Of a DNA stretch of 36,150 nucleotides, positions 6,070 to 36,150 are shown in pieces. This DNA comes from a virus, in the IMG/VR virus record IMGVR_UViG_3300036466_000493, positions 1-36,150 of that record, one strand, 5' to 3'. The translations under genes and the position numbers were made by a program. Below the pieces are notes generated by a model. The model saw only the letters and a list, made by a program, of their open reading frames with translations, had not been told where the DNA came from and ran no database searches. Every line of letters begins with the position of its first letter. The stretch's first letter is position 1.

Positions 6070-8112
6070 TTATGCCCGAAATAAGGAGTAATCTCCAGTC
6101 TCTTTCGCGTAAGCAATCGCTTTATCTAGATCAGTTACATGTCCCCAATCTGGGCCGATCTCCCCATCCGCCTTGACTGGGATACTTAAAGGTAGCGCGG
6201 TTTCCATAACATGCTGCATTTCTAGGAAAGCTTCGTCTCTCCCACCAGGATCAGAAAAATCCAATTCATCATGAACGGTAAGTCTTGGTACCCCTGTGGC
6301 ATCAAAGACCCCATCTTTCCAGCATTTATGCATTGCTTTTTTCATCTGGTCTGCCGCACTTCCTTGCAGCTTGCGGTTTAGAGCTTTATGTGTATACGCG
6401 CGACGAATCTTGGCATAAGTTACCAATGCTTTCTCTAAGGGTAACCCAACACTGTTACGATCCCAGTTAGCCGATTCCCATAAGTCGAATCTAGATTTAC
6501 GCCCCATAATAGTTTTAATGATACCTGAATCTTGCGCTTCGGCCATAGCCTGTTCCATTGTAGGCTTAGCGAAGTCTACTGCTTCAAAATAGGCCTCAAA
6601 TAACTCATTACCAGCCTTCTTAGTAAGCCCTAAATTCTTGCTTAGAGTCGCCTGTCCCATACCATAAATCAGGCCAAAGTTAATATTTTTAATCGGTTTA
6701 CGATCGATGTGGATACCAAGCTTATCCTTAATTAGTTGTTGGGCAAAATCGTGGTAATCTAGATCTGGGTTTGCATTAAACATCGCCCTAGCTCTATTCC
6801 CGGCTTGGCCAACAGCAAAGTGCACCATGAATCGGTATTCAATTTGGGAGTAATCGTACTTACGCCAAGCGCAATGCCCAACGTCGGGGATGAAAAGGCC
6901 ACGAATCATTGGTGCCAGTACTGGATCTCTAGAGGGGATATTCTGTAGGTTTGGGGTAGAGCTTGAATACCGCCCGCTTCGTGTACCCCCTCCTTCCCCC
7001 CTTAACGGATGAAACTGGCCATAGACTTTACCGTTAACATGAGAATCCAGTATATAGCTTTCTACAAACGTACCACGTAGCTTCTGTAATTGGCGTATTT
7101 CATTAATAACCACACCGGCTGGATTATCTAACCCTTCAAGAAACTGTTTAGTGAAGCTTGGGTTTCCCTTTGCGGTCGTTGGGTAACTCAATCCGAATGA
7201 ATCAAAAATCTTAACTAGGCTATCGGTGGCGTTTACGTTAATACCAAACCCTAGCTGCTTCTCGAAGTTCTTCTGCACCTCTAGTTCTTTCTTCTCTAGG
7301 GTATCCCGCAGCTCCTCAGCATATGGGATATTCACGGTAACCCCGGCAAAGCGCATCGCTAGGTATAATGGCATGAGTTCGCATTCCATTATAAACAGAT
7401 CCATTAATCCTTCTTCTACCAGCAATGGCCATTGTTTTTCAAGAATCTTTATGGGTAGGTAGGCATCCGACTCGGCATAATACCCCGTCAGACGAGCAGG
7501 GGTGCGGTATATGTTAGCCCTTTGTTTGCCGTTAGGGTTTCCACCGTAATAATCGGCACACCATTGGTACAGGGTATTAGATTCCTTACCCATACCTAAA
7601 TAGCGTTGACCAAGATCTTCAAGGGCTACCGTTCTGGCTTCGTGGAGCAATGCTTCAGCGTATTGGACATCATAAAGATCGCCGGCAACCTCTACCCCCT
7701 CGTGTTTAAGCCATCCGAGGTCGTACAGTAGGTTAGCCCCAACTTTGGGTTGAAGTGGGTTAGAGAGTTGTTTACGGAGCCAGTTCAACACCACTTCTGG
7801 GTCCCAGTTCTCCTCCGGAAATATTTCATGACGGATAGGGAAGTACCATGCTCCGCCTTTATCATCCCCTATAGAAATCCCAACGATATGCCCCTTTCCT
7901 CTAGCCCAACCCGGTCCTTTTTCTATCAGTTCAGGATCAAAGGTCTCAGTATCTATAGAAATGATCGAGGAGGCGGATAAATCTGGTAGATATTGTGGCA
8001 TTTGCCATCCAGTTTCTGGAATATCCGGCATTACCGCGGCTATACGTCCTTTCCCGCGGACGGCTGGAACATCTTCCCAGAACATACCTATTGCATCATC
8101 CCTCATAGACAT
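6070..8112 (-). CDS. Family A DNA polymerase with 3'-5' exonuclease domain
   Basis: 680 residues, a normal phage size because the Pol I 5'-nuclease domain is absent. Exonuclease motifs: IDTET with D54 and E56, ANLLYD with D131, and YAESD with Y212 and D216. Polymerase motifs: motif A KYDYSQIE (D420, E425), motif B R471...K475...F479...Y483-G (the O helix), motif C VHDE (H614-D615-E616). The template-contacting 'RYSSSTPNLQNIP' is at about 381. All catalytic residues are present, so it should be active. It copies the phage genome, presumably with the clamp and prim-pol/helicase encoded in the same operon. The start overlaps the SLOG gene by 17 bases. The O-helix Phe rather than Tyr predicts dideoxynucleotide discrimination as in E. 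coli Pol I. Confidence 0.95.
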   Translation of the reverse strand: MSMRDDAIGMFWEDVPAVRGKGRIAAVMPDIPETGWQMPQYLPDLSASSIISIDTETFDPELIEKGPGWARGKGHIVGISIGDDKGGAWYFPIRHEIFPEENWDPEVVLNWLRKQLSNPLQPKVGANLLYDLGWLKHEGVEVAGDLYDVQYAEALLHEARTVALEDLGQRYLGMGKESNTLYQWCADYYGGNPNGKQRANIYRTPARLTGYYAESDAYLPIKILEKQWPLLVEEGLMDLFIMECELMPLYLAMRFAGVTVNIPYAEELRDTLEKKELEVQKNFEKQLGFGINVNATDSLVKIFDSFGLSYPTTAKGNPSFTKQFLEGLDNPAGVVINEIRQLQKLRGTFVESYILDSHVNGKVYGQFHPLRGEGGGTRSGRYSSSTPNLQNIPSRDPVLAPMIRGLFIPDVGHCAWRKYDYSQIEYRFMVHFAVGQAGNRARAMFNANPDLDYHDFAQQLIKDKLGIHIDRKPIKNINFGLIYGMGQATLSKNLGLTKKAGNELFEAYFEAVDFAKPTMEQAMAEAQDSGIIKTIMGRKSRFDLWESANWDRNSVGLPLEKALVTYAKIRRAYTHKALNRKLQGSAADQMKKAMHKCWKDGVFDATGVPRLTVHDELDFSDPGGRDEAFLEMQHVMETALPLSIPVKADGEIGPDWGHVTDLDKAIAYAKETGDYSLFRA

Positions 8113-9602: not shown

Positions 9603-9891
9603 TTTTCTTAGCCTCTTCGTACTTAGCCAGTGCAACGCGAAGTTTCTTCGTAGTGGATTTGAAGACACGTAAAGATGCCTTAACTTCTTTATTCCAATAA
9701 TCGGCTGTCTTTAATCCTTCCTTGCTCATCTCTTCCATGTACTTATTATTAGGGTCCCAAGTATCTGCGAGCCATGCAGCCTCGAGCATCATGTCACTAT
9801 GATAAGCATCTATAGCGCTCTTGAGAGCCCGCCTGTTCTTCTTGGTGAGGCTATTGAAAGTACGCTTATCAATCTTGTTCGGTATTTTCAT
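9586..9891 (-). CDS. Small charged protein, unknown
   Basis: 101 residues, very rich in Lys and Ala with helical repeats (KKNRRALKSAIDAYH, STTKKLRVALAKYEEAKKNAKST). It starts at the base where dpdA ends (one-base overlap) and overlaps the clamp start by 17 bases. The basic, extended character suggests nucleic-acid binding. No family recognised. Confidence 0.55.
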   Translation of the reverse strand: MKIPNKIDKRTFNSLTKKNRRALKSAIDAYHSDMMLEAAWLADTWDPNNKYMEEMSKEGLKTADYWNKEVKASLRVFKSTTKKLRVALAKYEEAKKNAKST

Positions 9892-10808
9892 TAGAATAAT
9901 CCCATTTGATCTTGTACCCAGCGGGCTTCCTCGAAAGGAGGATACTCATTATGCATTTCGACATAAGCATTAATATTATATATCCAACGCGACAAATATT
10001 CAGTACTCAGGCGCTCATAACTATAGCCTTGGTCAGCTAATTTTCTACGGATGGCTTCCTGCTGCATTGGGGTGAAGGTGAGGAAGTGCTGATTCTCAAC
10101 CTTGCGGTTAGGGCTTTGATCAGAAATCGCCATAGCCCGGCCTTCATAAAGAATACTTCCGTTTGCCGCTACTTGAACCCAAGACGAGGAGTCGACGCTA
10201 AACCAAGGGTAACGTTTCATAAGGATAGGTGTGGTAACACCAAAGGCGTGCACCTTAGTCTTAGGGCGACCGGCGCCGTCCGTTAAATATTTCTCCCACA
10301 TCTCATCTAGCCAAACTAAAAGGTTCTTAGTAGATTGTGCAACCATGCCGCCGAGGGTTATGTAAGAATAGTTGGCCACATAATACTCTAAATAGCGCGG
10401 GTCTTCCCCGTAGTGAAAACAAGGTAATGGGCGTACCCCAAGAGTTTCCATACGCATTTGATTTTCATAGGTGCCTTGGTCATCTCCGATACTATCCAGC
10501 ACTGAGGCCATTACGGTATCATCTTCCATCCGAATAATATCTGAGTTGTCTTTTATATAGCGACAATAACCGGGCAGGTCAATCTCGGCGCCTTTCGACC
10601 ATGCCGAGAAAGCTCCGGAGTCGAGGAATACCTTGACTCCATCGCGGCGCATCTTGTCAATGTAAGATTGGCGATTAACATAGTGATATGATTCAAGGAT
10701 ATGCGGAATGTTATCACGGGCTATCTTTTCTGCTGGCTCTAAACGGCGATACAGTTTACCGTTTAAGTCAAAGTTAGAGGTATAAATACCGGCCATAAAA
10801 ATGTTCAT
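9891..10808 (-). CDS. dpdA: DpdA-type DNA 7-deazaguanine base-exchange enzyme (TGT-like)
   Basis: 305 residues. Phage DpdA proteins are distant relatives of tRNA-guanine transglycosylase and replace guanine in DNA with a 7-deazaguanine. The family pattern is visible: 'KVFLDSGAFSAWSKG' (D63-S-G) near the start, 'CFHYGED' at about 130, 'YITLGGMVAQST' at about 149, 'HAFGVTTP' (H187) and 'YPWFSVDSSSW' (D206) before the C-terminal helices. D63 and D206 are the likely catalytic acidic residues by analogy with TGT. Full preQ0 synthesis is encoded 2-5 kb upstream in the same orientation, which fixes the substrate class. The ATG at 10808 follows the 61-residue membrane gene by 3 bases. It should act on phage DNA in the cytoplasm. 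Confidence 0.85.
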   Translation of the reverse strand: MNIFMAGIYTSNFDLNGKLYRRLEPAEKIARDNIPHILESYHYVNRQSYIDKMRRDGVKVFLDSGAFSAWSKGAEIDLPGYCRYIKDNSDIIRMEDDTVMASVLDSIGDDQGTYENQMRMETLGVRPLPCFHYGEDPRYLEYYVANYSYITLGGMVAQSTKNLLVWLDEMWEKYLTDGAGRPKTKVHAFGVTTPILMKRYPWFSVDSSSWVQVAANGSILYEGRAMAISDQSPNRKVENQHFLTFTPMQQEAIRRKLADQGYSYERLSTEYLSRWIYNINAYVEMHNEYPPFEEARWVQDQMGLF

Positions 10809-17650: not shown

Positions 17651-19298
17651 AACCTTTTACCTCCGGGTATTTTTTGTTGATCCAAACTCCTATATGAGTT
17701 GGGACTTTAAGGTTAGAGGCATAATCTAAAGCCTCCTGTACTGTTTCTGGCGCTTCCCATTCACACCGTTCAGCCCACCAAGCTCGTGCCATTCGTCCTG
17801 CGCCACCACCATGTTCAAGGCATACATAGGTTGTAAATTTACGTAGCCCTGCAAAAATAGTTACTTTAATGGAGTCCGGCCTGTCCATTTTAGTGTGCCG
17901 GCTGTAAGTAACCCGGCTTACTTTAAAGATCTCCATTTGCGGCATACTGCTGGCCATTAAGGCTTCACTCGCTGCGGTCTCCCCTATCCTCACCGTCTTA
18001 GGGAACTCGAATCCACATACTGGGCAGATACGGATGCTAGCATGGCAGATTGTATTACAGACTTTATCTCCTGGCATCTTATTAACACATAAGCGCACTG
18101 GGGCAATACCGTTACCTTTCTCCCCTTTTTTCTTTGGGATAAGTGGGTCATTGATAGGTCCTAAGCGCCTTGTATTGCCGGCAAAATCCAATACCAAACA
18201 ATTCTGTTTTGGTCCGGCGGCTATCGAAGCTAAACGTTGTTCTATATCCTGCAGGTCATAGCCATCGGTATAGACCGGGCGTGTACCGCGACCGAGCATT
18301 TGAACCCATAAACCCGGAGACTTAGTTGGTCGCAGAGCTACGATCATATCAATACCGGGAAAGTCAAATCCTGTTGTAAGTTTATTATTGTTAACTAGAG
18401 CTGTTATCTTACCCGCCTTAAAATTACGAATGGCGGTTGCATTTAGTTCCTCAGACTGGCCGGAATGGCAAACTGCTGCTGGTATCCCATACTCCTCAAG
18501 TATATCGACTATATGGTTGCAATGCTCAATTCCTGTACCAAATATTAGCCAGTGATTGCGTTCCTCCCCGAGCACGCTACATTCGGCAAGGGCTGCCCGC
18601 GTAATACTATCTTGATCTACGGCGCGCTGCAGATCACTGTCGACGAACTCCCCGCCTTGTGTACGAACTTCGGATAGGTCGATTTCAAGATCAGTTTTCT
18701 TCGGTATTAAAGGCATTAGGTAGCCCTCGTCTACCAAACGCATAAAGCCGTCCATCGTGGTATTATCATAGCATATATCGGTGAATAACCCTCCGTCCGT
18801 AATTAAACCAACCCCCAACCTATAAGGGGTCGCCGAAAGGCCAATTACCTTTATATAAGGGTTAACGAGCTTTAACTCCTCTATAAATTTACGGTAGTTT
18901 GTATTATCCTTTTGAGACACGAGGTGGCATTCATCGATGACAATTAAATCTATATGCCCAAACTCATGCGACCTTTTAGCGACCGATTGGATTCCAGCGA
19001 ACGTAATAGGTTTACTAGTATCCCTACGGTTTAGCCCTGCAGAATAGATCCCAGCAGGTGCGGTTGGCCACAATCCTATCAATTTCTCGAAATTCTGTTC
19101 TATCAGCTCCTTAACATGGGTTAGCATCATAATACGTTGGCCGGGAAAATCATCGTATATGCGGTGCAATAGTCCGGCAATTACAACAGATTTTCCAGTA
19201 CCTGTTGGTTGGGCTATGACTGGGTTACCGTTACCGTTTTCAAAGTAGGTATAAATGGCGTCAATAGCCCCCTGCTGATAGTATCTAAGCTTAAACAT
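17574..19298 (-). CDS. SF2 DEAD/DEAH-box helicase with C-terminal zinc finger
   Basis: 574 residues. Motif I QPTGTGKS (30-37), Ia 'MMLTHVKELI', II DECH (123-126), III LSAT (155-158), a C-terminal helicase lobe with 'AAVCHSGQ' and 'NNNKLTTGFDFPGIDMIVAL', and motif VI 'QMLGRGTRP'. A Cys site follows: 'CNTICHASIRICPVCGFEFP'. This resembles the phage DEAD-box/Type III-res-like helicases next to Cas4-like nucleases. It would unwind or remodel DNA in replication/recombination. It overlaps the nuclease gene by 8 bases at its start. The last ~25 residues overlap the next gene in another frame and look like a read-on extension. Confidence 0.9.
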   Translation of the reverse strand: MFKLRYYQQGAIDAIYTYFENGNGNPVIAQPTGTGKSVVIAGLLHRIYDDFPGQRIMMLTHVKELIEQNFEKLIGLWPTAPAGIYSAGLNRRDTSKPITFAGIQSVAKRSHEFGHIDLIVIDECHLVSQKDNTNYRKFIEELKLVNPYIKVIGLSATPYRLGVGLITDGGLFTDICYDNTTMDGFMRLVDEGYLMPLIPKKTDLEIDLSEVRTQGGEFVDSDLQRAVDQDSITRAALAECSVLGEERNHWLIFGTGIEHCNHIVDILEEYGIPAAVCHSGQSEELNATAIRNFKAGKITALVNNNKLTTGFDFPGIDMIVALRPTKSPGLWVQMLGRGTRPVYTDGYDLQDIEQRLASIAAGPKQNCLVLDFAGNTRRLGPINDPLIPKKKGEKGNGIAPVRLCVNKMPGDKVCNTICHASIRICPVCGFEFPKTVRIGETAASEALMASSMPQMEIFKVSRVTYSRHTKMDRPDSIKVTIFAGLRKFTTYVCLEHGGGAGRMARAWWAERCEWEAPETVQEALDYASNLKVPTHIGVWINKKYPEVKGYDFTGTAFGTIGSDGAAEGLRRENP

Positions 19299-20346
19299 TA
19301 CGGTCTAATAGCTCCTTACTGGTAATACCTTTCCGTCCGTCGATAGTTTGGTCAGCTAGGAATACTTCTTGCCCGTGCCACTGGATACGGACATAACCTT
19401 CATCGTCAGCTCTATCCTTTGTTAGTACTGCACCATTCAGTAAGCTAGGGAGATAGATATGCCCATCACACCCGGATAGTTGACGCTCCTTAGGTAGGAG
19501 AACATTGTACCGGCTGCAGTGCCATTCTTTATTACCAACAGGGCTAGAACTAATACATGTGCGGCAATTTATCTCCGGCACATTAGTACCATGGCAGTTT
19601 TTGTGGTAATCGCAATATTTACATTCATACCAGCCGGGGCTATTATTTACACGGGCTGGTGCTTCATCTGTATAAATAAGAACTCCAACTCGGTCTAATA
19701 CCCGATCAGCGATGGCCATATCCAGTTCAATTATCTCACCCCAAAGTTCATCAGTGTCTTTATTCACCGCCATATACAACGCCCAATGCAGATCGTTTTT
19801 GCGCATATAGACTTGCATTTGGGTGAAATGCTTCCACTGGCAATTTCGTACCCCTTCCTTCTTTAGTTTGGTGAAGCTCTTATTGTTGTGAGTCTTCATC
19901 TCAACTAAGGCTGGTAACCCGGCTGGTAGATCTGGTATCCCAATGACTACCCCATCTAGAGCACTGCCTGCGTGTCCATTGAAATCTTCAATCTTAAACT
20001 GGCCACCTTCAGGTGTTTCGAAATATACGTCAAAACCAGCAGCCATGAGCATAGCTAAGAAGCGAGCTTCTTCGATATGACCCCTATTAAAAAGGCGTAA
20101 TATTCTTGCCGGGAACAGTTTGGCAACTGTCCAGCGCCAGCTGTACCAAAGTTTACGTCCACAATCTTCTCCGGCGTTTGAAAGGCCAAAATGGGAACGA
20201 TGCCTATCGCCGGTCGCCCGGTAAGCGTCTTCCATTTTAGGTAATAGGTCTTTAAGTATTTGGCGGTAGCGCGTACCTTGATCTGCGTACATGGAGGCTT
20301 CAATAGCTTCCAAAGTTTTTGTAGCAATACGTGGTTTTATAGACAT
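19291..20346 (-). CDS. PD-(D/E)XK nuclease with Cas4/AddB-type cysteine pattern
   Basis: 351 residues from the ATG at 20346 (MSIKPRIATK), preceded by AGAGG; the longer frame upstream would start inside the terminator. The core has 'GHAGSALDG' (D131) and 'LVEMKT' (E149, K151), the D...ExK metal site. One Cys near the N-terminus (EDCGRKLWY, C62) and a CxxCx5C group later (YECKYCDYHKNC) have the arrangement of the iron-sulfur cluster in Cas4/AddB nucleases. It is placed between the SF2 helicase and the DUF669/Sak4 genes, suggesting DNA-end resection for phage recombination. Cluster binding is inferred. Confidence 0.8.
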   Translation of the reverse strand: MSIKPRIATKTLEAIEASMYADQGTRYRQILKDLLPKMEDAYRATGDRHRSHFGLSNAGEDCGRKLWYSWRWTVAKLFPARILRLFNRGHIEEARFLAMLMAAGFDVYFETPEGGQFKIEDFNGHAGSALDGVVIGIPDLPAGLPALVEMKTHNNKSFTKLKKEGVRNCQWKHFTQMQVYMRKNDLHWALYMAVNKDTDELWGEIIELDMAIADRVLDRVGVLIYTDEAPARVNNSPGWYECKYCDYHKNCHGTNVPEINCRTCISSSPVGNKEWHCSRYNVLLPKERQLSGCDGHIYLPSLLNGAVLTKDRADDEGYVRIQWHGQEVFLADQTIDGRKGITSKELLDRNV

Positions 20347-21514: not shown

Positions 21515-22243
21515 CTATCCTGCCATTATCTTATTAAACACGTGGGTTAAGTTCGGCATCTCTAGTACTTCGAGGCAGCCTGAACGGTCTTTTGCCTGAT
21601 ACTGCATATCAGGGCTTGTACGGAGGTAACGGTATTCAGTTCCATCCGTTGTCTTACCTATATTTAGGTTGAACATTTCATCGAACCAGTAAGGGATCTG
21701 CTGGCTTAATTTAGAGCCCGGTAAAGATGGTTGAAATGATTTCGTACCATTATCCCCGTCTTTCGAAAACTCCTCTTTACTCGTTATGTAAATATGTTTA
21801 CCGGAGATATCCCTAAACGCACGTATAGTCATAGCCATCTTATCGATAAGCTCGCCATAGGCTTGTCTCGGGTCCTTAACTTGAAGTTTGGCGTTCGATA
21901 GTACCACCTCAGCTATTTCAGAAATTGAATCAATGGCTATGGTATCGAATCCGGCTGCTTCACTAGATTTTAATGCCCAGCTATGGGCTTCAGTAAGCTC
22001 TTCCACGGTGGTTACCTGTATCACAGGTAGATGGTATGAAATGGACGGGTTATCCGCGCCATAAAGACGGATTAGGTTTTCCTTACGTAAGGAAAGGAGC
22101 CCGCTCTCAGCACTGATCAATACTGGTCTTGGAGCAGTAGCAGTAAGTGCGGTCTTACCCATACCTGCCCGACCATATACAAGCGCCTTAACACCGTGGT
22201 TTTGGGCTAGTTCATGCGAATCAATTAATTTAATAGCCATCAT
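21515..22243 (-). CDS. Sak4-like RecA-fold ATPase (AAA_24), recombination
   Basis: 242 residues. Walker A GRAGMGKT (24-31), Walker B-like 'FDTIAIDSISEIAE' with the Asp after hydrophobic residues at about 100, and sensor segment 'GKHIYITSKEEF'. These match the phage single-strand annealing ATPases of the Sak4/AAA_24 group, which act with a DUF669 SSB-like partner encoded here two genes downstream. It is expected to anneal or exchange single strands in the cytoplasm. It begins 83 bases after the preceding gene, a gap with no clear promoter. Confidence 0.85.
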   Translation of the reverse strand: MMAIKLIDSHELAQNHGVKALVYGRAGMGKTALTATAPRPVLISAESGLLSLRKENLIRLYGADNPSISYHLPVIQVTTVEELTEAHSWALKSSEAAGFDTIAIDSISEIAEVVLSNAKLQVKDPRQAYGELIDKMAMTIRAFRDISGKHIYITSKEEFSKDGDNGTKSFQPSLPGSKLSQQIPYWFDEMFNLNIGKTTDGTEYRYLRTSPDMQYQAKDRSGCLEVLEMPNLTHVFNKIMAG

Positions 22244-22326
22244 GGTTCCTTATAACCTTTTGTGGTTACCTAATATAACCCTTTTAAAATCACTTCACAC
22301 TCACTGCTTAGAGCAGACTGTCATAG

Positions 22327-22821
22327 TTAACTTGGGTTTTCAATAAGCTCTAATTGGCCCGTATTAAAGCAGAACATATTTTCGGTCATGACGTTCACGC
22401 AGGCTACCTGATTACCATGGATATACTTAATGATATAAGCTTTATCCGCTAGGTTTTTATGGCGCACAGGATCATCAAGCTTAAAAGGTCTTGAGGCCGG
22501 TTTTTCCTTATCAATAGTTAGTTGGCTAAATAAGGCGTGGACTGCTTCACCAGCTGTGTCCCCAAAACCGGCTACTGATTCTTGTAAGTTTACGAAGCCG
22601 GGTAATACCGCGCACCAAGCGGAACCGTCTTTGAATACCCGAATTTTTCCCTGATTGTTATTGGTCTCATTAGACTTATTAATGACCACACAATTCTGGT
22701 TCTTTTTCATGGACTCAAATGCCTCGTCTTCGTAAATTTGATCTTCTTTGAGCTGATCGCGGTGGAGCGCGTCGGCCAACTGGTGCAACTGCTTTAGTAC
22801 AACTGAAGTAGGTCTAAACAT
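22327..22821 (-). CDS. Hypothetical protein downstream of the ClpX-like ATPase
   Basis: 164 residues from the ATG at 22821 (MFRPTSVVLKQ), 1 base after the ATPase stop with GGAGG upstream; longer frames begin inside the ATPase gene. Residues 1-40 are helical. The middle (GKIRVFKDGSAWCAVLPGFVNLQESVAGFGDTAGEAVHALF) looks like the HicB/dsRBD-like 'G-x-A-x-x-P...G-x-T..EA' domain. The C-terminal half has strand-rich 'DDPVRHKNLADKAYIIKYIHGNQVACVNV'. Possibly an accessory of the ATPase or an RNA-binding protein, unproven. Confidence 0.6.
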   Translation of the reverse strand: MFRPTSVVLKQLHQLADALHRDQLKEDQIYEDEAFESMKKNQNCVVINKSNETNNNQGKIRVFKDGSAWCAVLPGFVNLQESVAGFGDTAGEAVHALFSQLTIDKEKPASRPFKLDDPVRHKNLADKAYIIKYIHGNQVACVNVMTENMFCFNTGQLELIENPS

Positions 22822-26414: not shown

Positions 26415-28709
26415 TTACTCTAGAGGCCATTGATCCCCGAGAGCATAGACCTTACCGGATGTTTGAAATTCCTTCTGGGCTTGGGGTTTCGGCATTTCGT
26501 TTAACATACCGCTATCTACCATGGCTTCTATCAGCCCGGTTAGCGCCCGACTTTGGCCTCGGCTATCATTTTTAAAGGATGATAACTGTTTAACGTGATC
26601 CCGCATCCAGCTAGCCGGGATTACCTTACGGTCATGGAACTTTTTAAAGAGACTTTTTGGCTTCTTAGTAAAGTACTCATTAACCTTACGGATAAAATCA
26701 GCTTCCTGTTTCGATTCCCCGTTACCGACCTCACCTTTTTCGAAGCGGTTAAGTAATGTGGCAATATCCTGTTTAACAAAGGCCATAGCCCAATTAAAAT
26801 GCCTTTCAGTAATTACGGGAGCATTATAATTACACCCTACAGCAATCAAAGCAGCTAGCTTCAGTACCTTTAGATGGGCTCGGTTCCATAACTGAGTTAG
26901 GAGCTGATTGCTACTATTATTGATTAGGTCAGTGGTTTCTTTTTCGAAAGCATCGGATAGAACCTTTGACTTGGCATCTAAGACGACATCGACATGTGCT
27001 TCATTGGCTTGCATCGTTAGTACAATGGTAACTAAGTCAGTTAAGCTACGTATTAACGATTCAGCCGGTGGAAACCCATTATTCTCGTTAAGGTACGGGC
27101 GGTTGCCTGTATACTCCCGAATGGTGAAACGCGGTATTAAGCCATCGGCAATATGGTGTTCGCTAAGCCCTTCTAGGAATGTTTCAGGGGTACTTTCCCC
27201 AAGAACACTAAGAGCTGGGCTACGTACTAGATCTGTATTCTTTTCCTTATCCGAATACACAGACGCCTTAAGGGTAGAATGCCAACCGGATTTCTGATAG
27301 AGATCCAGAAGCGCATGGCGTAGGGATACATGAGCCCCCATAGCCTTAGGATCACAAATCTGCTGCAGGGTTAAACCGAACTCACCTAACACAGATAGGA
27401 AGCATGGGCTCTCAGACATGTACTTGACGAGCGCCGGTCCGGAAGCAAAGGCACTTGGCCCCGAGAAGTTATCCACCATAGGTACAGACTTTCTCACAGC
27501 GTTAGTAAGCCTATCTATGCCCCCTACAATACCTTCTTTACCAGTACCCGTCTTAGCCAATAGAATTAGGTAATGATTTAAACCTACCCCTGACACGTTG
27601 TACTGGCGCCCGACCAAACCGGCCATTAAACCAATAGCCCCCATTAACCCAAATTCTCGAACAGGTCTTGCCGCAGAGGCGTAAATGTATTCAGCTAATT
27701 CACCTATTAATCCCGGTGGGAAAAGGTCAGGGTCATCAGGCTGGCTTACCGCTGTATGGGTAGGTTCATTATTAACAATGGCCAGTACTTTTTCTTCGTT
27801 CGTTGAAGTGGCAGCTTGAGCTTCCGGTTTATTGATTAAAGCCTGTACCCTTTTCTCAAGTTCCCCAAAGTCTACCTTAACCGGGGCATTGGCTCGAATC
27901 TTACTTAGGGCGAAGTTAAGATAGGTATCGTTCTTAACCGCTTTTTCTCGTTTCCCTAATTGGGTCATTCTAAAGATGCGTCTTACTTGCTCATTCGAGT
28001 CAGTGTAAAAAGCGATAATAGACAGTAAGGCTAGATCCGCTTCAGATTGACTAGGGTATTCCGAAAAATGGCCATTGCAGAGATCCGTAAATTTTTCCCC
28101 ATTCATGGCGCTCATAGCCATCTCGACAATTTCGGTATCTTCTAGGGTATCAGCTGTCTCAACAAGCTCAACACCTTTAGCCGCACTATCCATCTCGGCA
28201 AATAAAGTATCTAGCATTGGTTGGCAATCTATGATCGGAAGATCTTTTAGAACATTACCAGTACAGACCATATAACGTTGAGTGCTATACATCTCGACGG
28301 TATCACGGTTAACCCCGTGCGGGACACTACCTCTGACCACAATATGAACGCCTCTACCGGATTGGCTGATCTCGGTATAACTTTCGAAGCTGTCCATAAT
28401 CTTTTGGTTGAGCTTTGCATGGGTTTCCCGTTGGTCCTCACTCCATTGTTTATCTGGATTATAAGGATCGTCGAGATCGATAATGCAATAAGGATCTTCA
28501 CTTGATAGTACGAAACCTACGTGTGGCCACTGTTCCGTTCTGCGCTCTAATGCCGCATTGAATGTCGTCCAAGTACGGCTATCAGTCGGTGAAGCCTTGG
28601 TACCGTTCAAAGGGTTAATAGGTATCTTGTCTTGAGACTTAATTACGGCTTTGGTGCCGCAGACCCATTGGTTAAGAGCTTTGAGCTCTGCTGGGATATT
28701 CTCTAGCAT
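26415..28709 (-). CDS. Primase-polymerase fused to a helicase-type ATPase domain
   Basis: 764 residues. The N-terminal AEP (archaeo-eukaryotic primase) domain is about 1-170, with 'YCIIDLDD' (D78, D80), 'ISQSGRGVHIVV' (S117...H122) and 'RYMVCTGN'. A helix-rich linker (about 210-275, 'SEADLALLSIIAFYTDSNEQVRRIFR') corresponds to the segment between primase and helicase in NrS-1-like and other phage prim-pols. The C-terminal ATPase (about 330-650) has Walker A AKTGTGKE (385-392) and resembles DUF3987. It would prime and unwind at the replication fork. It is the largest protein of the operon and lies right after the HTH gene, 9 bases after its stop. Confidence 0.85.
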   Translation of the reverse strand: MLENIPAELKALNQWVCGTKAVIKSQDKIPINPLNGTKASPTDSRTWTTFNAALERRTEQWPHVGFVLSSEDPYCIIDLDDPYNPDKQWSEDQRETHAKLNQKIMDSFESYTEISQSGRGVHIVVRGSVPHGVNRDTVEMYSTQRYMVCTGNVLKDLPIIDCQPMLDTLFAEMDSAAKGVELVETADTLEDTEIVEMAMSAMNGEKFTDLCNGHFSEYPSQSEADLALLSIIAFYTDSNEQVRRIFRMTQLGKREKAVKNDTYLNFALSKIRANAPVKVDFGELEKRVQALINKPEAQAATSTNEEKVLAIVNNEPTHTAVSQPDDPDLFPPGLIGELAEYIYASAARPVREFGLMGAIGLMAGLVGRQYNVSGVGLNHYLILLAKTGTGKEGIVGGIDRLTNAVRKSVPMVDNFSGPSAFASGPALVKYMSESPCFLSVLGEFGLTLQQICDPKAMGAHVSLRHALLDLYQKSGWHSTLKASVYSDKEKNTDLVRSPALSVLGESTPETFLEGLSEHHIADGLIPRFTIREYTGNRPYLNENNGFPPAESLIRSLTDLVTIVLTMQANEAHVDVVLDAKSKVLSDAFEKETTDLINNSSNQLLTQLWNRAHLKVLKLAALIAVGCNYNAPVITERHFNWAMAFVKQDIATLLNRFEKGEVGNGESKQEADFIRKVNEYFTKKPKSLFKKFHDRKVIPASWMRDHVKQLSSFKNDSRGQSRALTGLIEAMVDSGMLNEMPKPQAQKEFQTSGKVYALGDQWPLE

Positions 28710-28718
28710 CGCGAGCTC

Positions 28719-28940
28719 CTAGCTAAATAGTTTCTTACCAGAAAGGTATTCGTATAAGTACTGTGTGCGGTTTACTGCCGGGTTAGGGATCTCACCAGCA
28801 CTAAACTTTTTCAGCCAATAGAAAGGGACCCCGCTTTCCTTATGTATATCTAGTAGGCTACGAGGATCCTTGCGCAATAGGGCAATAGTCTCCGCCATTA
28901 GGGTTTGGGGGTTATCGTAACCATCCGTACTCTGTTCCAT
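28719..28940 (-). CDS. Small Cro/HTH-like DNA-binding regulator
   Basis: 73 residues, first gene of the leftward operon. Residues 17-52 have the helix-turn-helix pattern 'ALLRKDPRSLLDIHKESGVPFYWLKKFSAGEIPNP' ('D-I-h-x-x-S-G-V-p-x-x-h-L-K-K-F-x-x-G'). The rest is short helices. Placed directly at the divergent control region, it is a good candidate for a repressor or Cro-type switch acting on its own promoter and on the plus-strand operon. No binding site is proven; paired TTAGGTTT/AAACCTAA words nearby are candidates. Confidence 0.7.
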   Translation of the reverse strand: MEQSTDGYDNPQTLMAETIALLRKDPRSLLDIHKESGVPFYWLKKFSAGEIPNPAVNRTQYLYEYLSGKKLFS

Positions 28941-28949
28941 TATTTTACC

Positions 28950-29033
28950 TTAGGTTTCATACACAGGTCCCAATTATAATAAATAGGGAAAATTTTACAA
29001 CCCCTTATTTTGTACCTACAATTTTAAACCTAA
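28950..29033. promoter_or_regulatory. Candidate operator words flanking the divergent promoters
   Basis: TTAGGTTT (28950-28957) and its exact reverse complement AAACCTAA (29026-29033) lie 76 bases apart, on either side of the leftward promoter, with a third AAACCTA at 29082-29088 just downstream of the rightward promoter. This is the arrangement expected for a regulator that bridges or co-represses divergent promoters. Confidence 0.35.
28973..29000 (-). promoter_or_regulatory. Leftward early promoter
   Basis: Minus strand TTGTAA (29000-28995), 16-bp spacer, TATAAT (28978-28973), 33 bases before the HTH gene. It is the likely origin of the leftward operon. Confidence 0.65.
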
Positions 29034-29038
29034 TATAG

Positions 29039-29067
29039 TTGATTAATTACTCTACTAGTAGGATAAT
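29039..29067 (+). promoter_or_regulatory. Rightward early promoter
   Basis: TTGATT (29039-29044), 17-bp spacer AATTACTCTACTAGTAG, GATAAT (29062-29067), 37 bases before the ATG at 29104. The spacer begins with the same AATTACTCTA as the denV promoter. It is the likely start of the plus-strand small-gene operon. Confidence 0.75.
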
Positions 29068-29103
29068 AAAGGGGTAGAAACAAACCTATATAAGGAAGGT
29101 AAG

Positions 29104-29295
29104 ATGAGTAACGTAATAATTGGTGATAAAGAATACAGAGCTGTTCCTGTAGTAAAAGGCACTGGCCATAGATGCAGTAAATGCGTGGCGCTTATGGATG
29201 ATGACCTTTGTGATAGCCTACCGGAATGCGCTAGTACCAGCTCCAGAGCATCCTCCATCACTGTGGATCATGTTTATTTCGTTGAGGAGTTTTAG
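29104..29295 (+). CDS. Small cysteine-containing protein, unknown
   Basis: 63 residues, AAGGAAGGTAAG upstream. 'GHRCSKCVALMDDDLCDSLPEC' has four cysteines spaced like a small zinc finger, followed by 'VDHVYFVEEF'. Small Cys-rich proteins of this type are common at the start of phage early operons. First gene of the plus-strand operon. Function unknown. Confidence 0.6.
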   Translation: MSNVIIGDKEYRAVPVVKGTGHRCSKCVALMDDDLCDSLPECASTSSRASSITVDHVYFVEEF

Positions 29296-29296
29296 G

Positions 29297-29770
29297 ATGA
29301 CTTATAATCGTATCATGTGGCGCGGCATTAATGCTAAAAGTCACAAACTAACCCTAATTGTAGACTATCCTGATAAGGTATGGTCTTTTACTGGGGATGG
29401 AGATCGCGCCGTTGCTAACGGCTGGAAAGTCATTCAGGTATATGCTGATGGTACTCCAGTTAAAATGGTAGGGTGTACCGGAGGGTGTGGCTGCACTAAG
29501 CCATCCCATCAATTCGCGAGCAAATTTTCTGATTCAGATAACGGTCTTTTGGTTACCTTATATATCTGTCGCCAATGTGGTGGCCGAGGCGAACCAGAAG
29601 CTTATGTCTTTGATCCTAATCTTATTACTGAACTCCAAAATGCTACGGATAGTTATGCAGCTGCCCTTAAGCAAATGAAACTTGCTCGCGGGATTATTAA
29701 TGAACACCTAGATCGCCTTAATAATGACTGGAACACCTTTCAGACATTTGATGATGTTATGGAGCTATGA
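29297..29770 (+). CDS. Early protein with cysteine clusters, unknown
   Basis: 157 residues from the ATG at 29297, 1 base after the previous stop, with AGGAG upstream; a longer frame begins inside the upstream gene. Residues 1-50 are strand-rich (KLTLIVDYPDKVWSFTGDGDRA). Then 'CTGGCGC' and 'ICRQCGGRGEPEA' make a DnaJ-like zinc site, and a long helix ends the protein (TDSYAAALKQMKLARGIINEHLDRLNNDW). Possibly nucleic-acid or chaperone related; not assigned. Confidence 0.6.
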   Translation: MTYNRIMWRGINAKSHKLTLIVDYPDKVWSFTGDGDRAVANGWKVIQVYADGTPVKMVGCTGGCGCTKPSHQFASKFSDSDNGLLVTLYICRQCGGRGEPEAYVFDPNLITELQNATDSYAAALKQMKLARGIINEHLDRLNNDWNTFQTFDDVMEL

Positions 29771-29772
29771 AT

Positions 29773-29976
29773 ATGAGTAACTACCGGTTAATTGTTGTAG
29801 ATAACCAATTTATCCTTGAAACGATTATTGGTGCCTTGGGTATTCACGTTTGGTACCCAACACCCCCAACGAGAACCCAAATTCGAGACCAGCAAAAGGC
29901 GTTACGTAAAGCGAGACTTAACCCTTTCATGTTCTCTTACACTTATTGTACCAAGCAACGGAGATTCATAAAATGA
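29773..29976 (+). CDS. Small early protein, unknown
   Basis: 67 residues from the ATG at 29773 (MSNYRLIVVDNQF), which has GGAG 8 bases upstream; the ATG at 29767 is only 2 bases from it. Hydrophobic N-terminal half (LIVVDNQFILETIIGALGIHVW), basic C-terminal half (RDQQKALRKARLNP, CTKQRRFIK). Overlaps the next gene by four bases. Not recognised. Confidence 0.5.
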   Translation: MSNYRLIVVDNQFILETIIGALGIHVWYPTPPTRTQIRDQQKALRKARLNPFMFSYTYCTKQRRFIK

Positions 29977-30419
29977 TTACATTCTTATATCGCAGCTATA
30001 TCTCGTACCCTGATGAACTGGCCGACCAGGCTACTATGCGCATCCAGAACATCCCGTATAAGGTCATCAGTGAGACTAAGTGTGGTTGGTGGATTGAGTA
30101 TCCAAATGCCAAGGGTAAGAAATTTGTTCTCGACGGTCCCGGCAAACGTTTCGCTCACCCAACTGTTGAAGAATCTGTTCACGCGCTTATTAAACGCAAG
30201 CAAGCTCATATGCGCCATGTAATCCGCCAGTATGAAGAACTTTCCCATTTTCTTAATCGTACTCATATGGCTACTTTCCTATTCGATGAAGATGCCCCTA
30301 TTGGTATCTTCAACGGCTGGACTAAGACCATTATTGTGGATAATCCTGATGCGCCTAAACTCTTCCGAACCAGCGCACTACGTTACCCGCTCCACCTACT
30401 CAAAGGAAAAGAGCAATGA
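29973..30419 (+). CDS. Early hypothetical protein
   Basis: 148 residues from the ATG at 29973 (MITFLYRSYISYP), with CGGAG upstream. Beta segments (YKVISETKCGWWIEYPNAKGKKFVLDGPG) are followed by a long basic helix (VEESVHALIKRKQAHMRHVIRQYEELSHFLN) and further strands. The first part resembles short phage proteins with a 'C-G-W-W-I' core. Coupled on both sides by ATGA overlaps. Function unknown. Confidence 0.6.
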   Translation: MITFLYRSYISYPDELADQATMRIQNIPYKVISETKCGWWIEYPNAKGKKFVLDGPGKRFAHPTVEESVHALIKRKQAHMRHVIRQYEELSHFLNRTHMATFLFDEDAPIGIFNGWTKTIIVDNPDAPKLFRTSALRYPLHLLKGKEQ

Positions 30420-30637
30420 AATTTGGAATCGATATAGAAGTGCAGCGCGAGCGCAATAAAGAAATGGATGGAACCTATGAACGTAAGTTTGCTTGGTTTC
30501 CAACTGAGCTGCGTAATGGGCAGTGGATATGGTTAGATTATTATTACCGTAATTATGTAGCCGGGATCGAGCATTATAACCTTGGTAAGTATGATGACCT
30601 AAACCCTCACAAGGGATTTAAGGAGAGAACAAAATGA
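30416..30637 (+). CDS. Small aromatic-rich protein, unknown
   Basis: 73 residues. Very rich in Trp and Tyr in 'KFAWFPTELRNGQWIWLDYYYRNYVAG'. ATGA overlap with the gene before and the gene after, so co-translated. No motif recognised. Confidence 0.55.
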   Translation: MKFGIDIEVQRERNKEMDGTYERKFAWFPTELRNGQWIWLDYYYRNYVAGIEHYNLGKYDDLNPHKGFKERTK

Positions 30638-30870
30638 ACAAGGTTAAACCAATAGCAGTAATCTGCCAGAGCCGCCGTCAATTTGATGATTGGTTAAATT
30701 GGTGGTTGAATCCAGAAGAGCGCGCTAAGTTCGTTTGCATTACCCGCGATCAGGACTTCCGCGGACAGACCTTCAGTCAAATGATAAAGCTCGGTAACTG
30801 GTATCATAACCCAAATGCAACCGAGCTAATCACCCAAGCACAACTACGAATCGAACCGAGAGGGAAGTAA
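30634..30870 (+). CDS. Small early protein, unknown
   Basis: 78 residues: 'IAVICQSRRQFDDWLNWWLNPEERAKFVCITRDQDFRGQTFSQMIKLGNWY'. This pattern ('I-C-x-S-x-x-Q-F-D-x-W', 'F-V-x-I-T-x-x-D-x-x-x-G...') suggests a small Rossmann-like or ATPase-like strand-helix unit as in 'P-loop-lacking' phage proteins. Not identified. Overlaps the previous gene by four bases. Confidence 0.5.
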   Translation: MNKVKPIAVICQSRRQFDDWLNWWLNPEERAKFVCITRDQDFRGQTFSQMIKLGNWYHNPNATELITQAQLRIEPRGK

Positions 30871-32460: not shown

Positions 32461-32596
32461 AAGCAGCGATTGTCGTGTGGTTAGGAATGATCATAAGGCA
32501 GCGATGTTTTTGTGCACTTATGAGCTTAAGGCAGCGATTGTTTTGAGCATAAGGACGCGATTGTTTTACAAATGATGCAAAGGCAGCGATGTTTTT
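32461..32596 (+). repeat. Five iteron-like direct repeats, AAGGCAGCGATTGTTTT
   Basis: The core GCAGCGAT or GACGCGAT starts at 32463, 32498, 32531, 32554 and 32583, each followed by GTTTT or TGTTTT except the first, which has TGTCG. Spacing is 35, 33, 23 and 29 bases, unlike a CRISPR array. They lie on one strand in the same orientation. Confidence 0.8.
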
Positions 32597-32745: not shown

Positions 32746-32900
32746 GAAATGCGCATTAGGCCGGGATTGGTTCAAAAACCGACCAATTGAATATAGCCCG
32801 GCGACCACAATTGTACTACCCAAGTTTAGCGCCTATTTGATACCTTTATATAGGGGGGTTGCTTAGACCAAAATAAATGGCTCTTAGTCCTAAGTGGTAT

Positions 32901-32929
32901 TTGATCTAATTGTTGGGATCACTTATTAT
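32901..32929 (+). promoter_or_regulatory. Sigma70-type promoter for the 32962 gene
   Basis: TTGATC (32901-32906), 17-bp spacer, TATTAT (32924-32929), 33 bases before the ATG, which has AAGGA upstream. It starts the second group of plus-strand small genes. Confidence 0.75.
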
Positions 32930-32961
32930 TAATCATCGCAATTAAGAAAGGGGTTAAGGAA

Positions 32962-33168: not shown

Positions 33169-33193
33169 GAATAACCTTAGTCCAAACTAGAAC

Positions 33194-33222
33194 TTACCAA
33201 ATGAACATGTGTGTTCTATAAT
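33194..33222 (+). promoter_or_regulatory. Promoter for the 33280 gene
   Basis: TTACCA (33194-33199), 17-bp spacer, TATAAT (33217-33222). Transcription would begin near 33229, directly at a hairpin (AGTTGGGG / CCCCTAACT, 33231-33252), a 5'-end structure that usually stabilises mRNA. Confidence 0.6.
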
Positions 33223-33279
33223 TAATCATCAGTTGGGGGATAGCCCCTAACTTAAATCAAAACTTTGGAGATCTACATT

Positions 33280-33804
33280 ATGAAAACTTACGCATCTAAA
33301 GCTTCTGCAGTTCGCCAGGCCAAAAAAGATCATGGCGCCAACTATTTAGAAATCGGCTCAATCGGGCAGAACCCTGAAGGCAAATGGCAGTTTGTGGTTA
33401 TTGAAATGCCTTTGGCCGGTGGCTTTGTTAACTGCCCACATTGCAAGGCTCACCTTTCAAACGGCCTAAGCGATTTCGCTACCCAAGCCGAAATCGCCGG
33501 GCAAAATGCCCCTGAGGCGGCCATAACCCACGAATTCCTTTGCCTTACTTGCGGGGAAGAATTTGGTGATTTGGTTAAGGTCGCCCCTAAAAAAGAAGCC
33601 AAGCCAAAACAGGATCGCTCGGCCATGAGCGGGGCATGCGCCTTGGTTTGGGATATCGCGGGCAGCATGTTAGCCGCCGACCCAACCACGCGCCGTAAGG
33701 ATATTTTACAGGCCTGTGTTGATCGCGGAATCGCTTTTTATACGGCGCGCACCCAATACCAAAAGTATCGCGAAGCTTGTAAAAACGATGCTTCTAATAA
33801 CTAA
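33280..33804 (+). CDS. Zinc-ribbon protein with C-terminal ATxxTQY module
   Basis: 174 residues from the ATG at 33280 (MKTYASKASAVRQAKKDHGANYLE), with TTTGGAG upstream; a TTG at 33265 is in frame but overlaps it. Residues 51-92 contain a split zinc ribbon, CPHC (52-55) and CLTC (88-91). A Lys/Pro linker (102-115) leads to the module 'SGACALVWDIAGSMLAADPTTRRKDILQACVDRGIAFYTARTQYQKYREACK' (about 117-167), also found in two minus-strand proteins. The combination suggests nucleic-acid binding, by inference. Its own promoter and leader hairpin suggest high expression. Unknown function. Confidence 0.65.
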   Translation: MKTYASKASAVRQAKKDHGANYLEIGSIGQNPEGKWQFVVIEMPLAGGFVNCPHCKAHLSNGLSDFATQAEIAGQNAPEAAITHEFLCLTCGEEFGDLVKVAPKKEAKPKQDRSAMSGACALVWDIAGSMLAADPTTRRKDILQACVDRGIAFYTARTQYQKYREACKNDASNN

Positions 33805-34244: not shown

Positions 34245-34529
34245 GCTCAATCTGCTCACATCGATTTAAAGCCCTCAAACACGCGCCCTACGGGGCGTTC
34301 GCCTTTCCCCTACCCCTACTATGACCAAGAAGAGATCTCGATTTTAACCTTTTTGCCCACTACCCGGACTACTATGTAGTCTTTTTCACCAAGTCCATAA
34401 GGCTAGGCGACTAGTCCAAATCGGTCCTAAAAGAAGTGTTCATAAGCGCCCAAAAGAGCCGTAAGTGTACTATAATTAAGGGGAAGACAAGGGAAATACA
34501 CGGTTTACTTGGAAATAGGAATCATTACC
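34245..34529 (+). other. Noncoding stretch with a terminator and 7-bp-phased TAGTCC words
   Basis: About 285 bases without a gene: a short GC hairpin (CGCCC-tacg-GGGCG, near 34285), a terminator at 34366-34386, and TAGTCT, AAGTCC and TAGTCC starting at 34377, 34391 and 34412, that is 14 and 21 bases apart, the same 7-bp phase as the array at 35315. A TATAAT at 34471-34476 has no good -35. Confidence 0.55.
34366..34386 (+). terminator. Short rho-independent terminator
   Basis: GACTAC (34367-34372) pairs with GTAGTC (34376-34381) around TAT, followed by TTTTT. It would end transcripts of the 33280-34244 genes. Short stem, so only moderately strong. Confidence 0.55.
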
Positions 34530-35256: not shown

Positions 35257-35280
35257 GCGCTCAGAGCCCTGAATGATCAC

Positions 35281-35305
35281 AGCCCCCATGCGGGGCTTTC
35301 ATTTT
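35281..35305 (+). terminator. Strong terminator after the microprotein operon
   Basis: AGCCCC (35281-35286) pairs with GGGGCT (35292-35297), with extra G:C possibilities in the loop, followed by TTCATTTT. It closes the second group of plus-strand early genes. Confidence 0.8.
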
Positions 35306-35314
35306 GCCAATCGT

Positions 35315-35481
35315 TAGTCCATCCAAGTCTATCCTTATACAATGATCATTAGTCCTATTAGGTAGGGCCATAGTCCCTAGCCCATAGTCCACTCTGGACC
35401 ATCCTTAGTCCATGGCCTATAGTCCATACGAGTCGGCCATTAGTCCGGGAGCCTTGGTCCTCAATGGACTTAGCTTAGACC
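35315..35481 (+). repeat. Degenerate heptamer array, consensus TAGTCC(A/T)
   Basis: Exact TAGTCC starts at 35315, 35350, 35371, 35385, 35406, 35420 and 35441. The distances are 35, 21, 14, 21, 14 and 21, all multiples of 7. Intervening heptamers in the same phase include TAGCCCA (35378), TGGCCTA (35413), TGGTCCT (35455) and TAGACCT (35476). This is a decayed tandem repeat of a 7-base unit. No gene overlaps it on either strand. Confidence 0.85.
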
Positions 35482-35516
35482 TGAAAAGACTATGCTCCTC
35501 GCGTTCATGAGGATAA

Positions 35517-35611
35517 TCTAATCAATTAAAATCTAATCAAGCATTACATTGATTAGAATTCTCTAATCAAGCATTATCTAATGTAGCTTTTAAGTGATTA
35601 GAATTCTCTAA
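35517..35611 (+). repeat. TCTAATCAA direct repeats with 15-bp phasing and an inverted repeat
   Basis: TCTAATCAA starts at 35517, 35532 and 35562 and TCTAATGTA at 35577: distances 15, 30 and 15. TTGATTAGA-attc-TCTAATCAA (35549-35570) is an inverted pair with a 4-base loop. TGATTAGAATTCTCTAA occurs at 35550 and again at 35595. Placed between the heptamer array and the promoter at 35722. Confidence 0.8.
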
Positions 35612-35721
35612 AGTAGTTTTTTCTAATACGCTCCCTCAGCGCCCCGAAAAAATTTTTACAAAAAATTTCATTTCTACCCTATGGCGGCATCTACTCAAAT
35701 CCAGTGTCATCTAATCTTCTA

Positions 35722-35749
35722 TTGCATTACCCATCAACACTACTATAAT
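35722..35749 (+). promoter_or_regulatory. Promoter for the right-edge gene
   Basis: TTGCAT (35722-35727), 16-bp spacer, TATAAT (35744-35749), 32 bases before the ATG at 35781, which has AAGGA upstream. It begins the next transcription unit, probably the late structural region of which the left end of the window is the tail. Confidence 0.65.
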
Positions 35750-35780
35750 AGTATCAATCAAATCACAATAAGGATTAATC

Positions 35781-36150
35781 ATGCCAGACCGTAAGCTACC
35801 GACCATAGATTTTAGTAAGCCATCTAATCGGGACATTCTAGTATTGCAGCGGAAGCTCTCTGTTATTATAGCTGAAGATGCAGAGTTTCAAGAGTACGTA
35901 AAAAATCGCGGTTTGTATTTTGACCGTTGCGCGGTGCCGGATGACCAAGGTATTGCAGAAACTATCTTTAGTGATACTATAAAGGCCGAGCACGAAAAGG
36001 GTGCCGGGATGACCCTTAATCTAGTAAATAAGTTAGGTCCCGCGGCTCTAACAGGGGCTTTAACCATGTTCCAATGGTTAGCTACTAATAATGGAAGAGC
36101 CGTATTGGATGTAGCCTTACGCCAGATCGGCTACATGATTGTTCAACGCC
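35781..36150 (+). CDS. Hypothetical protein, 3' end missing
   Basis: 123 codons are visible from the ATG at 35781 (MPDRKLPTIDFSKPSNRDILVL), with AAGGATTAATC upstream. The product is mostly helical with a first amphipathic segment (LQRKLSVIIAEDAEFQEYV) and a Leu/Ala-rich later part (LVNKLGPAALTGALTMFQWLATNNG). The frame is open at the right edge. By place it could be the first gene of the packaging region, but no terminase motif is visible in this part. Confidence 0.6.
   Translation, partial: MPDRKLPTIDFSKPSNRDILVLQRKLSVIIAEDAEFQEYVKNRGLYFDRCAVPDDQGIAETIFSDTIKAEHEKGAGMTLNLVNKLGPAALTGALTMFQWLATNNGRAVLDVALRQIGYMIVQR

Follow-up and report, generated by a model that had tools for sequence, protein, structure and literature searches.

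A TAGTCC array of five diverged 35-bp units in the noncoding control region of a siphophage-like genome, a candidate operator cluster

IMG/VR record IMGVR_UViG_3300036466_000493, analysed here in full (36,150 bases, the window), carries a siphophage-like genome in which the noncoding DNA separating the early operon from the next transcription unit contains five diverged copies of a 35-bp unit, with TAGTCC or a derivative of it at offsets 0 and 21. The words are better conserved than the spacers, and further copies stand upstream of three early promoters predicted from the sequence. The array is probable, if only just, as a cluster of operators for one sequence-specific and probably phage-encoded DNA-binding protein, with pairs of the same word also placed at early promoters.

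Genome context and nearest relatives

Tail genes on the + strand occupy the left end of the window, replication genes and a queuine tRNA-ribosyltransferase-like gene on the - strand occupy the middle, and small early genes on the + strand extend from about 29.1 to 35.26 kb. The queuine tRNA-ribosyltransferase-like gene (9891-10808, phrog_887) adjoins the clamp and polymerase genes, as in deazaguanine-DNA phages, and this placement suggests that the DNA of the phage may be 7-deazaguanine-modified.

The nearest named relative is Shewanella phage S0112 (contig L009), which is described in the literature as lytic and shares 53% identity in the primase and 57% in the helicase. Next come deazaguanine-cluster phages of Stenotrophomonas, Pseudomonas, Microcystis and Vibrio. 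Among IMG/VR contigs the closest is L007 (67% primase identity), which extends only about 4 kb beyond the primase and has no array there.

Words, spacing and repeat unit

Exact copies of TAGTCC start at 35315, 35350, 35371, 35385, 35406, 35420 and 35441, and the spacings of 35, 21, 14, 21, 14 and 21 bp are precisely those given in an earlier, sequence-only reading of this DNA. The one-mismatch words TGGTCC (35455) and TAGACC (35476) extend the pattern. In dinucleotide-preserving shuffles of the 168-bp array, seven in-phase copies were reached in none of 20,000, the maximum for any hexamer being four. Mean autocorrelation of the array region at multiples of 7, a check that the same reading had proposed, is 0.415 vs 0.251 (z = 13; 0 of 2,000 shuffles), and the 7-base periodicity that might have appeared by chance in shuffled sequence arose in neither series.

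What repeats is a unit of 35 bp, present five times. Autocorrelation by lag is 0.60 at 70, 0.54 at 35, 0.44 at 21 and 0.36 at 7; masking of the TAGTCC words leaves lags 35 and 70 in place (0.34 and 0.45) whereas lag 7, at 0.30, is near chance. The second heptad ends in AG or GG, not CC, in 5 of 5 units. A decayed tandem heptamer, the origin first proposed, is accordingly rejected on the masked autocorrelation. That the spacings are always a multiple of 7 is true of the distances themselves, but it follows from 35 and 21 both happening to be multiples of 7 and does not define the period. In-phase heptads outside the words are closer to TAGTCC than most other frames; since they are copies of only three ancestral heptads, the likeness is weak support for a heptamer origin.

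The array and its units are as follows.

35315..35489, + strand: array of five diverged 35-bp units with TAGTCC at offsets 0 and 21, from word positions, autocorrelation and unit alignment
35315..35349, + strand: unit 1, TAGTCC / TATACA (second word lost)
35350..35384, + strand: unit 2, TAGTCC / TAGTCC
35385..35419, + strand: unit 3, TAGTCC / TAGTCC
35420..35454, + strand: unit 4, TAGTCC / TAGTCC
35455..35489, + strand: unit 5, degenerate, TGGTCC / TAGACC
35458-35492, - strand: inverted partial unit overlapping unit 5

The noncoding location given earlier is borne out, as only short ORFs without support cross the array, and a coding origin is rejected on the same ground. RNA structure or membership of a known RNA family was also rejected, an Rfam search of the array region having returned no match and single-stranded DNA folding of the array being little better than that of shuffles (z -1.35).

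Conservation of the words

Pairwise identity between units is 85% in the words and 37% in the spacers. Simulated uniform decay, which let five copies of a random 35-mer diverge evenly until their mean identity matched that of the array, produced two blocks as conserved in 6 of 4,000 simulations; the words had been picked because they are conspicuous, and the block search in the simulation allows for such a choice. Column permutation of words against spacers gives P = 0.0015. The non-word columns also agree above chance (P = 0.00025), which is expected if the units arose by duplication. Selection on the TAGTCC words is likely in view of the two identities, and this half of the earlier suggestion of selection or recent amplification stands, but the units are too diverged for the other half.

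The same figures bear on whether the array is a neutral or decaying minisatellite, that is, a 35-bp tandem duplication drifting without function. Words so much better conserved than their spacers argue against this reading, as do the divergence of the units, among which Tandem Repeats Finder reports no 35-bp array, and the presence of TAGTCC upstream of three promoters at recurring distances (see below). Short tandem repeats are common, however, four unrelated contigs carry heptamer tandems of this sort (CCCTAGT, TAGTCCA), and S0112 has no array. Drift of this kind is considered quite unlikely.

Copies at early promoters

Only four exact + strand copies of TAGTCC are found outside the array, at 19170, 32885, 33178 and 34412. 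The first is gene-internal, within the replication genes of the - strand. The remaining three are all in intergenic DNA of the early operon, where they lie 39 bp (32885), 39 bp (33178) and 59 bp (34412) upstream of -10 boxes. One-mismatch words are located further upstream at 32864 (-60), 34391 (-80) and 34377 (-94), and two of the three promoters thus have a second word about 21 bp beyond the first. All + strand pairs outside the array that lie within 60 bp and include an exact TAGTCC are spaced 21 or 35 bp. The promoter-linked features are listed below; words are from the word scan and promoters are predicted from the sequence.

32864..32890, + strand: putative operator pair TAGACC - 21 bp - TAGTCC, at -60/-39 from the -10 box at 32924
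32924..32932, + strand: predicted -10 box TATTATTAA of the ORF 32962 promoter
33178..33183, + strand: putative single operator word TAGTCC, at -39 from the -10 box at 33217
33194..33222, + strand: predicted promoter TTACCA-17-TATAAT of ORF 33265, with -10 box TATAATTAA at 33217; layout alike in S0112
34377..34417, + strand: putative operator cluster TAGTCT -14- AAGTCC -21- TAGTCC, at -94/-80/-59 from the -10 box at 34471
34471..34479, + strand: predicted -10 box TATAATTAA of the ORF 34530 promoter

A promoter of like layout, TTACCA-17-TATAATTAA, is present at 21873 in S0112, and GTGTACTATAATTAAGGGG, found at the ORF 34530 promoter, recurs in Vibrio phage 1.117.O; these two matches make the promoter assignments credible. 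Vibrio phage 1.117.O also carries TAGTCT at -60 of two paralogous early promoters. No hexamer other than TAGTCC is common to the regions ahead of all three early promoters. The probability that any hexamer would be common to all three is 0.015, and that it would be the array's own word about 1e-6, for three promoters that are predicted from sequence only and were chosen after the words had been seen.

Binding on one face of the helix had been set aside earlier as not the obvious explanation. The recurring element is however a pair 21 bp apart, which is two helical turns, and two of the promoters have such a pair in front of them. Activator and repressor sites include a general class of direct-repeat operators that lie ahead of promoters with two-turn spacing. 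The TAGTCC pairs resemble them in that their words share one face of the helix at an interval of about 21 bp and keep recurring distances to the -10 boxes downstream, and differ in that the array is a five-fold multiplication in a distant noncoding cluster. The 35-bp pitch turns the pairs by 120 degrees per unit, and there is no common face for all pairs, which tells against the operator reading for the cluster as a whole.

A second directional word, GGCAGCGATnGTTTT, occurs in or near early intergenic regions on the + strand only, at 32463, 32498, 32531 and 32583 in the window and at 19466, 19511, 20368, 20407, 20458, 20485, 21379, 21396, 21431 and 21454 in S0112. It is better conserved between the two phages than TAGTCC, and may be an iteron or a regulatory word.

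The noncoding region and its counterpart in S0112

The noncoding region that holds the array spans 524 bp (35257-35780), from the end of the early operon to the next transcription unit. Other features of this region, and the ORF that follows it, are as follows.

35281..35297, + strand: terminator-like hairpin that would close the upstream early operon, from a weak scan (1 found vs 1.5 expected in shuffles)
35517..35611, + strand: second repeat family, TCTAATC(A) words on a 15-bp grid with two ATTAGAATTCTCTAA boxes (35552, 35597) 45 bp apart
35633..35649, + strand: conserved noncoding core CCCTCAGCGCCCCGAAA, then A+T-rich DNA, common to S0112
35722..35749, + strand: predicted promoter TTGCAT-16-TATAAT of the next ORF
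35781..36149, + strand: first ORF of the next transcription unit, which runs off the contig

The last ORF has no family match and one weak Vibrio phage homologue. The array had been described as adjacent to a promoter, which is inexact, as about 270 bp separate it from the nearest credible promoter, on its downstream side. The distance, in place of one like the -39 seen at early promoters, also counts against the operator reading.

The counterpart in S0112 is a 485-bp noncoding region (22240-22724) that follows early genes including a relative of ORF 33265. The hairpin has a counterpart at the matching position in a GC hairpin with a run of T, the ATTAGAATTCTCTAA boxes (22478 and 22523; family span 22478-22537) are also exactly 45 bp apart, and the core is present in the form CCCTCAGCGCCTCGAAA at 22560. 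The left part contains irregular repeats (e.g. GCCTAAT) and no phased array. Judged from this comparison, the array is a lineage-specific element within a conserved control region, since S0112 keeps the other elements of the region but not the array.

The core CCCTCAGCGCCYCGAAA (35633-35649 in the window, 22560-22576 in S0112) is followed by A+T-rich DNA and kept in both phages. Its matches in other contigs are mostly chance matches inside GC-rich sequence and were rejected. Contig L054 has a similar inverted pair but otherwise no resemblance. A pattern of core plus box gave a match in L061 that was rejected as chance, being inside coding sequence, and one in a Persicobacter genome contig.

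The composition of the region brings in replication-origin iterons, in which case an initiator would bind the TAGTCC pairs and open the A+T-rich DNA to the right (35500-35680). Iterons of theta origins, of the plasmid Rep and phage lambda O type, are protein-binding direct repeats beside A+T-rich DNA, and the array likewise consists of direct repeats that adjoin such a stretch (A+T content 0.72-0.80 at 35501-35600) in a large noncoding region at the right end, of which S0112 keeps the A+T-rich half and the core motif. Initiators often regulate promoters too via the same words, and this would fit the copies at early promoters. In a classical iteron series each unit measures about 17-22 bp and holds a single site, unlike the array with its two 6-bp words per 35 bp and its word also at promoters. 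No clear DnaA boxes were found, and cumulative GC skew turns near the primase (28.5 kb in the window, about 9 kb in S0112) and not at the array, a comparison confounded by gene direction. S0112 is without the array although the primase/helicase genes and the HTH neighbour are conserved, and as candidate iterons the conserved words of the GGCAGCGAT family are just as good. An origin function as the main explanation is therefore unlikely.

A cos or pac site, to which the terminase small subunit would bind for packaging, is much less probable again. The pac site of phage P1 contains clusters of a hexanucleotide, about seven in about 160 bp, and the array also has about seven hexanucleotides in about 160 bp, though of another word. 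Clustered short words, noncoding DNA in front of a block of later genes and the GC-rich conserved core CCCTCAGCGCCYCGAAA about 145 bp downstream of the array would all suit packaging. S0112 has been reported with T5-like termini and packaging (PMC6893657), which also counts in its favour. The counterpart region of S0112 is however about 6 kb upstream of, and thus far from, the terminase genes (28393-30800), and packaging would leave the TAGTCC words at early promoters unexplained, a further difference from P1 pac.

Searches for the array in other genomes

No relative carrying the array was found in viral contig searches or among related phages, in collections that may omit near-identical records, and a search by primase found no relatives in bacterial genomes. 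A search with the pattern of promoter plus word gave no match. Two array patterns returned five viral contigs. Four of the five (L003, L004, L005 and L006) are unrelated contigs with contiguous 7-bp tandems of the CCCTAGT or TAGTCCA type, and were rejected as carriers of the same array, which has a unit of 35 bp even though the tandems also contain TAGTCC. In the related contig L018, a perfect 7-bp tandem repeat (TGAGTAA unit) is present at 6170-6210, just 3' of the primase gene.

Candidate DNA-binding proteins

Two predicted products were considered as regulators. A Cro/XRE-like HTH protein encoded at 28719-28940 is predicted with a mean pLDDT of 87.5 and matches XRE-type proteins with a Foldseek probability of 0.99 but an E of 0.28. 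The product of ORF 33265 (33265-33804), the promoter of which itself carries a TAGTCC word, is a possible DNA-binding protein; its predicted structure is of low confidence except for a helical C-terminal domain, and a fold search gave no convincing match. This product is zinc-ribbon-like, and its conserved C-terminal domain (VWxIADEM...GIAFYTARTQYQ) is found in many related phages. Because both proteins are kept in many relatives without the array, they are only weak candidates, and their occurrence in many relatives without the word tells against the operator reading.

The proteins encoded also bear on a centromere-like partition site bound by a ribbon-helix-helix protein, as with the omega heptads of plasmid pSM19035. 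Arrays for omega (ParB; WATCACW) contain 7-10 sites, short non-palindromic words in a 7-bp register in promoter regions, with low affinity for a single word (PMC9499535). The TAGTCC words share the register and the presence in promoter regions, in an array of about ten sites. Omega heptads are however contiguous and in either orientation, at least four being needed without a gap (PMC9499535), whereas the words here differ in sequence, are in one orientation and are 14 or 21 bp apart within a 35-bp unit. No two exact words in the array are contiguous (spacings 14, 21 and 35), and it nowhere has four contiguous heptads. The genes scanned of this incomplete contig include none recognisable as encoding a ribbon-helix-helix or ParA protein, and the nearest named relative is described as lytic. 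Partition is the least probable of the explanations considered and can be given hardly any credence.

Proposed function of the array

The operator reading is preferred because the words are more conserved than the spacers and TAGTCC alone is common to the three promoter upstream regions. It is also favoured by the neighbouring noncoding region being kept in place in S0112, and by the restriction of exact + strand copies, except that at 19170, to early intergenic DNA. From these features we infer that a protein binds the words; the candidates for its identity, the direction of control and the role of the whole cluster are put forward on the same footing.

The recognition word would be TAGTCC, with a fuller consensus of ccWTAGTCCAnannrGW, always in the direction of early transcription, and the working element would consist of two same-orientation copies of it, offset by two helical turns (21 bp). 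At three or more early promoters, single words or pairs lie 39 to 80 bp ahead of the -10 box, where they could serve activation or repression. In the main noncoding control region, where the early operon ends and the next unit begins, five pairs appear to have been multiplied as 35-bp units. The multimer may form a cooperative cluster of high occupancy that either switches the next unit, by repression or activation, or titrates the regulator, and it may double as an origin.

A bolder proposal is that this is a new phage control system, with 21-bp word pairs at early promoters and a 35-bp multimer that would act as a distant enhancer, silencer or titration sink timing the early-to-later switch; this is possible but doubtful. 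The array is known in kind, iterons and multi-site operators being the broader kind, and new in detail. No literature on a TAGTCC array element was found, nor any description of transcription control in deazaguanine-modifying siphophages (S0112 relatives, Queuovirinae). In these phages, the search for the regulator can start from a word that stands at three early promoters and has been multiplied in the control region, and the array suggests how fast operator words may turn over between related phages while the control region stays put.
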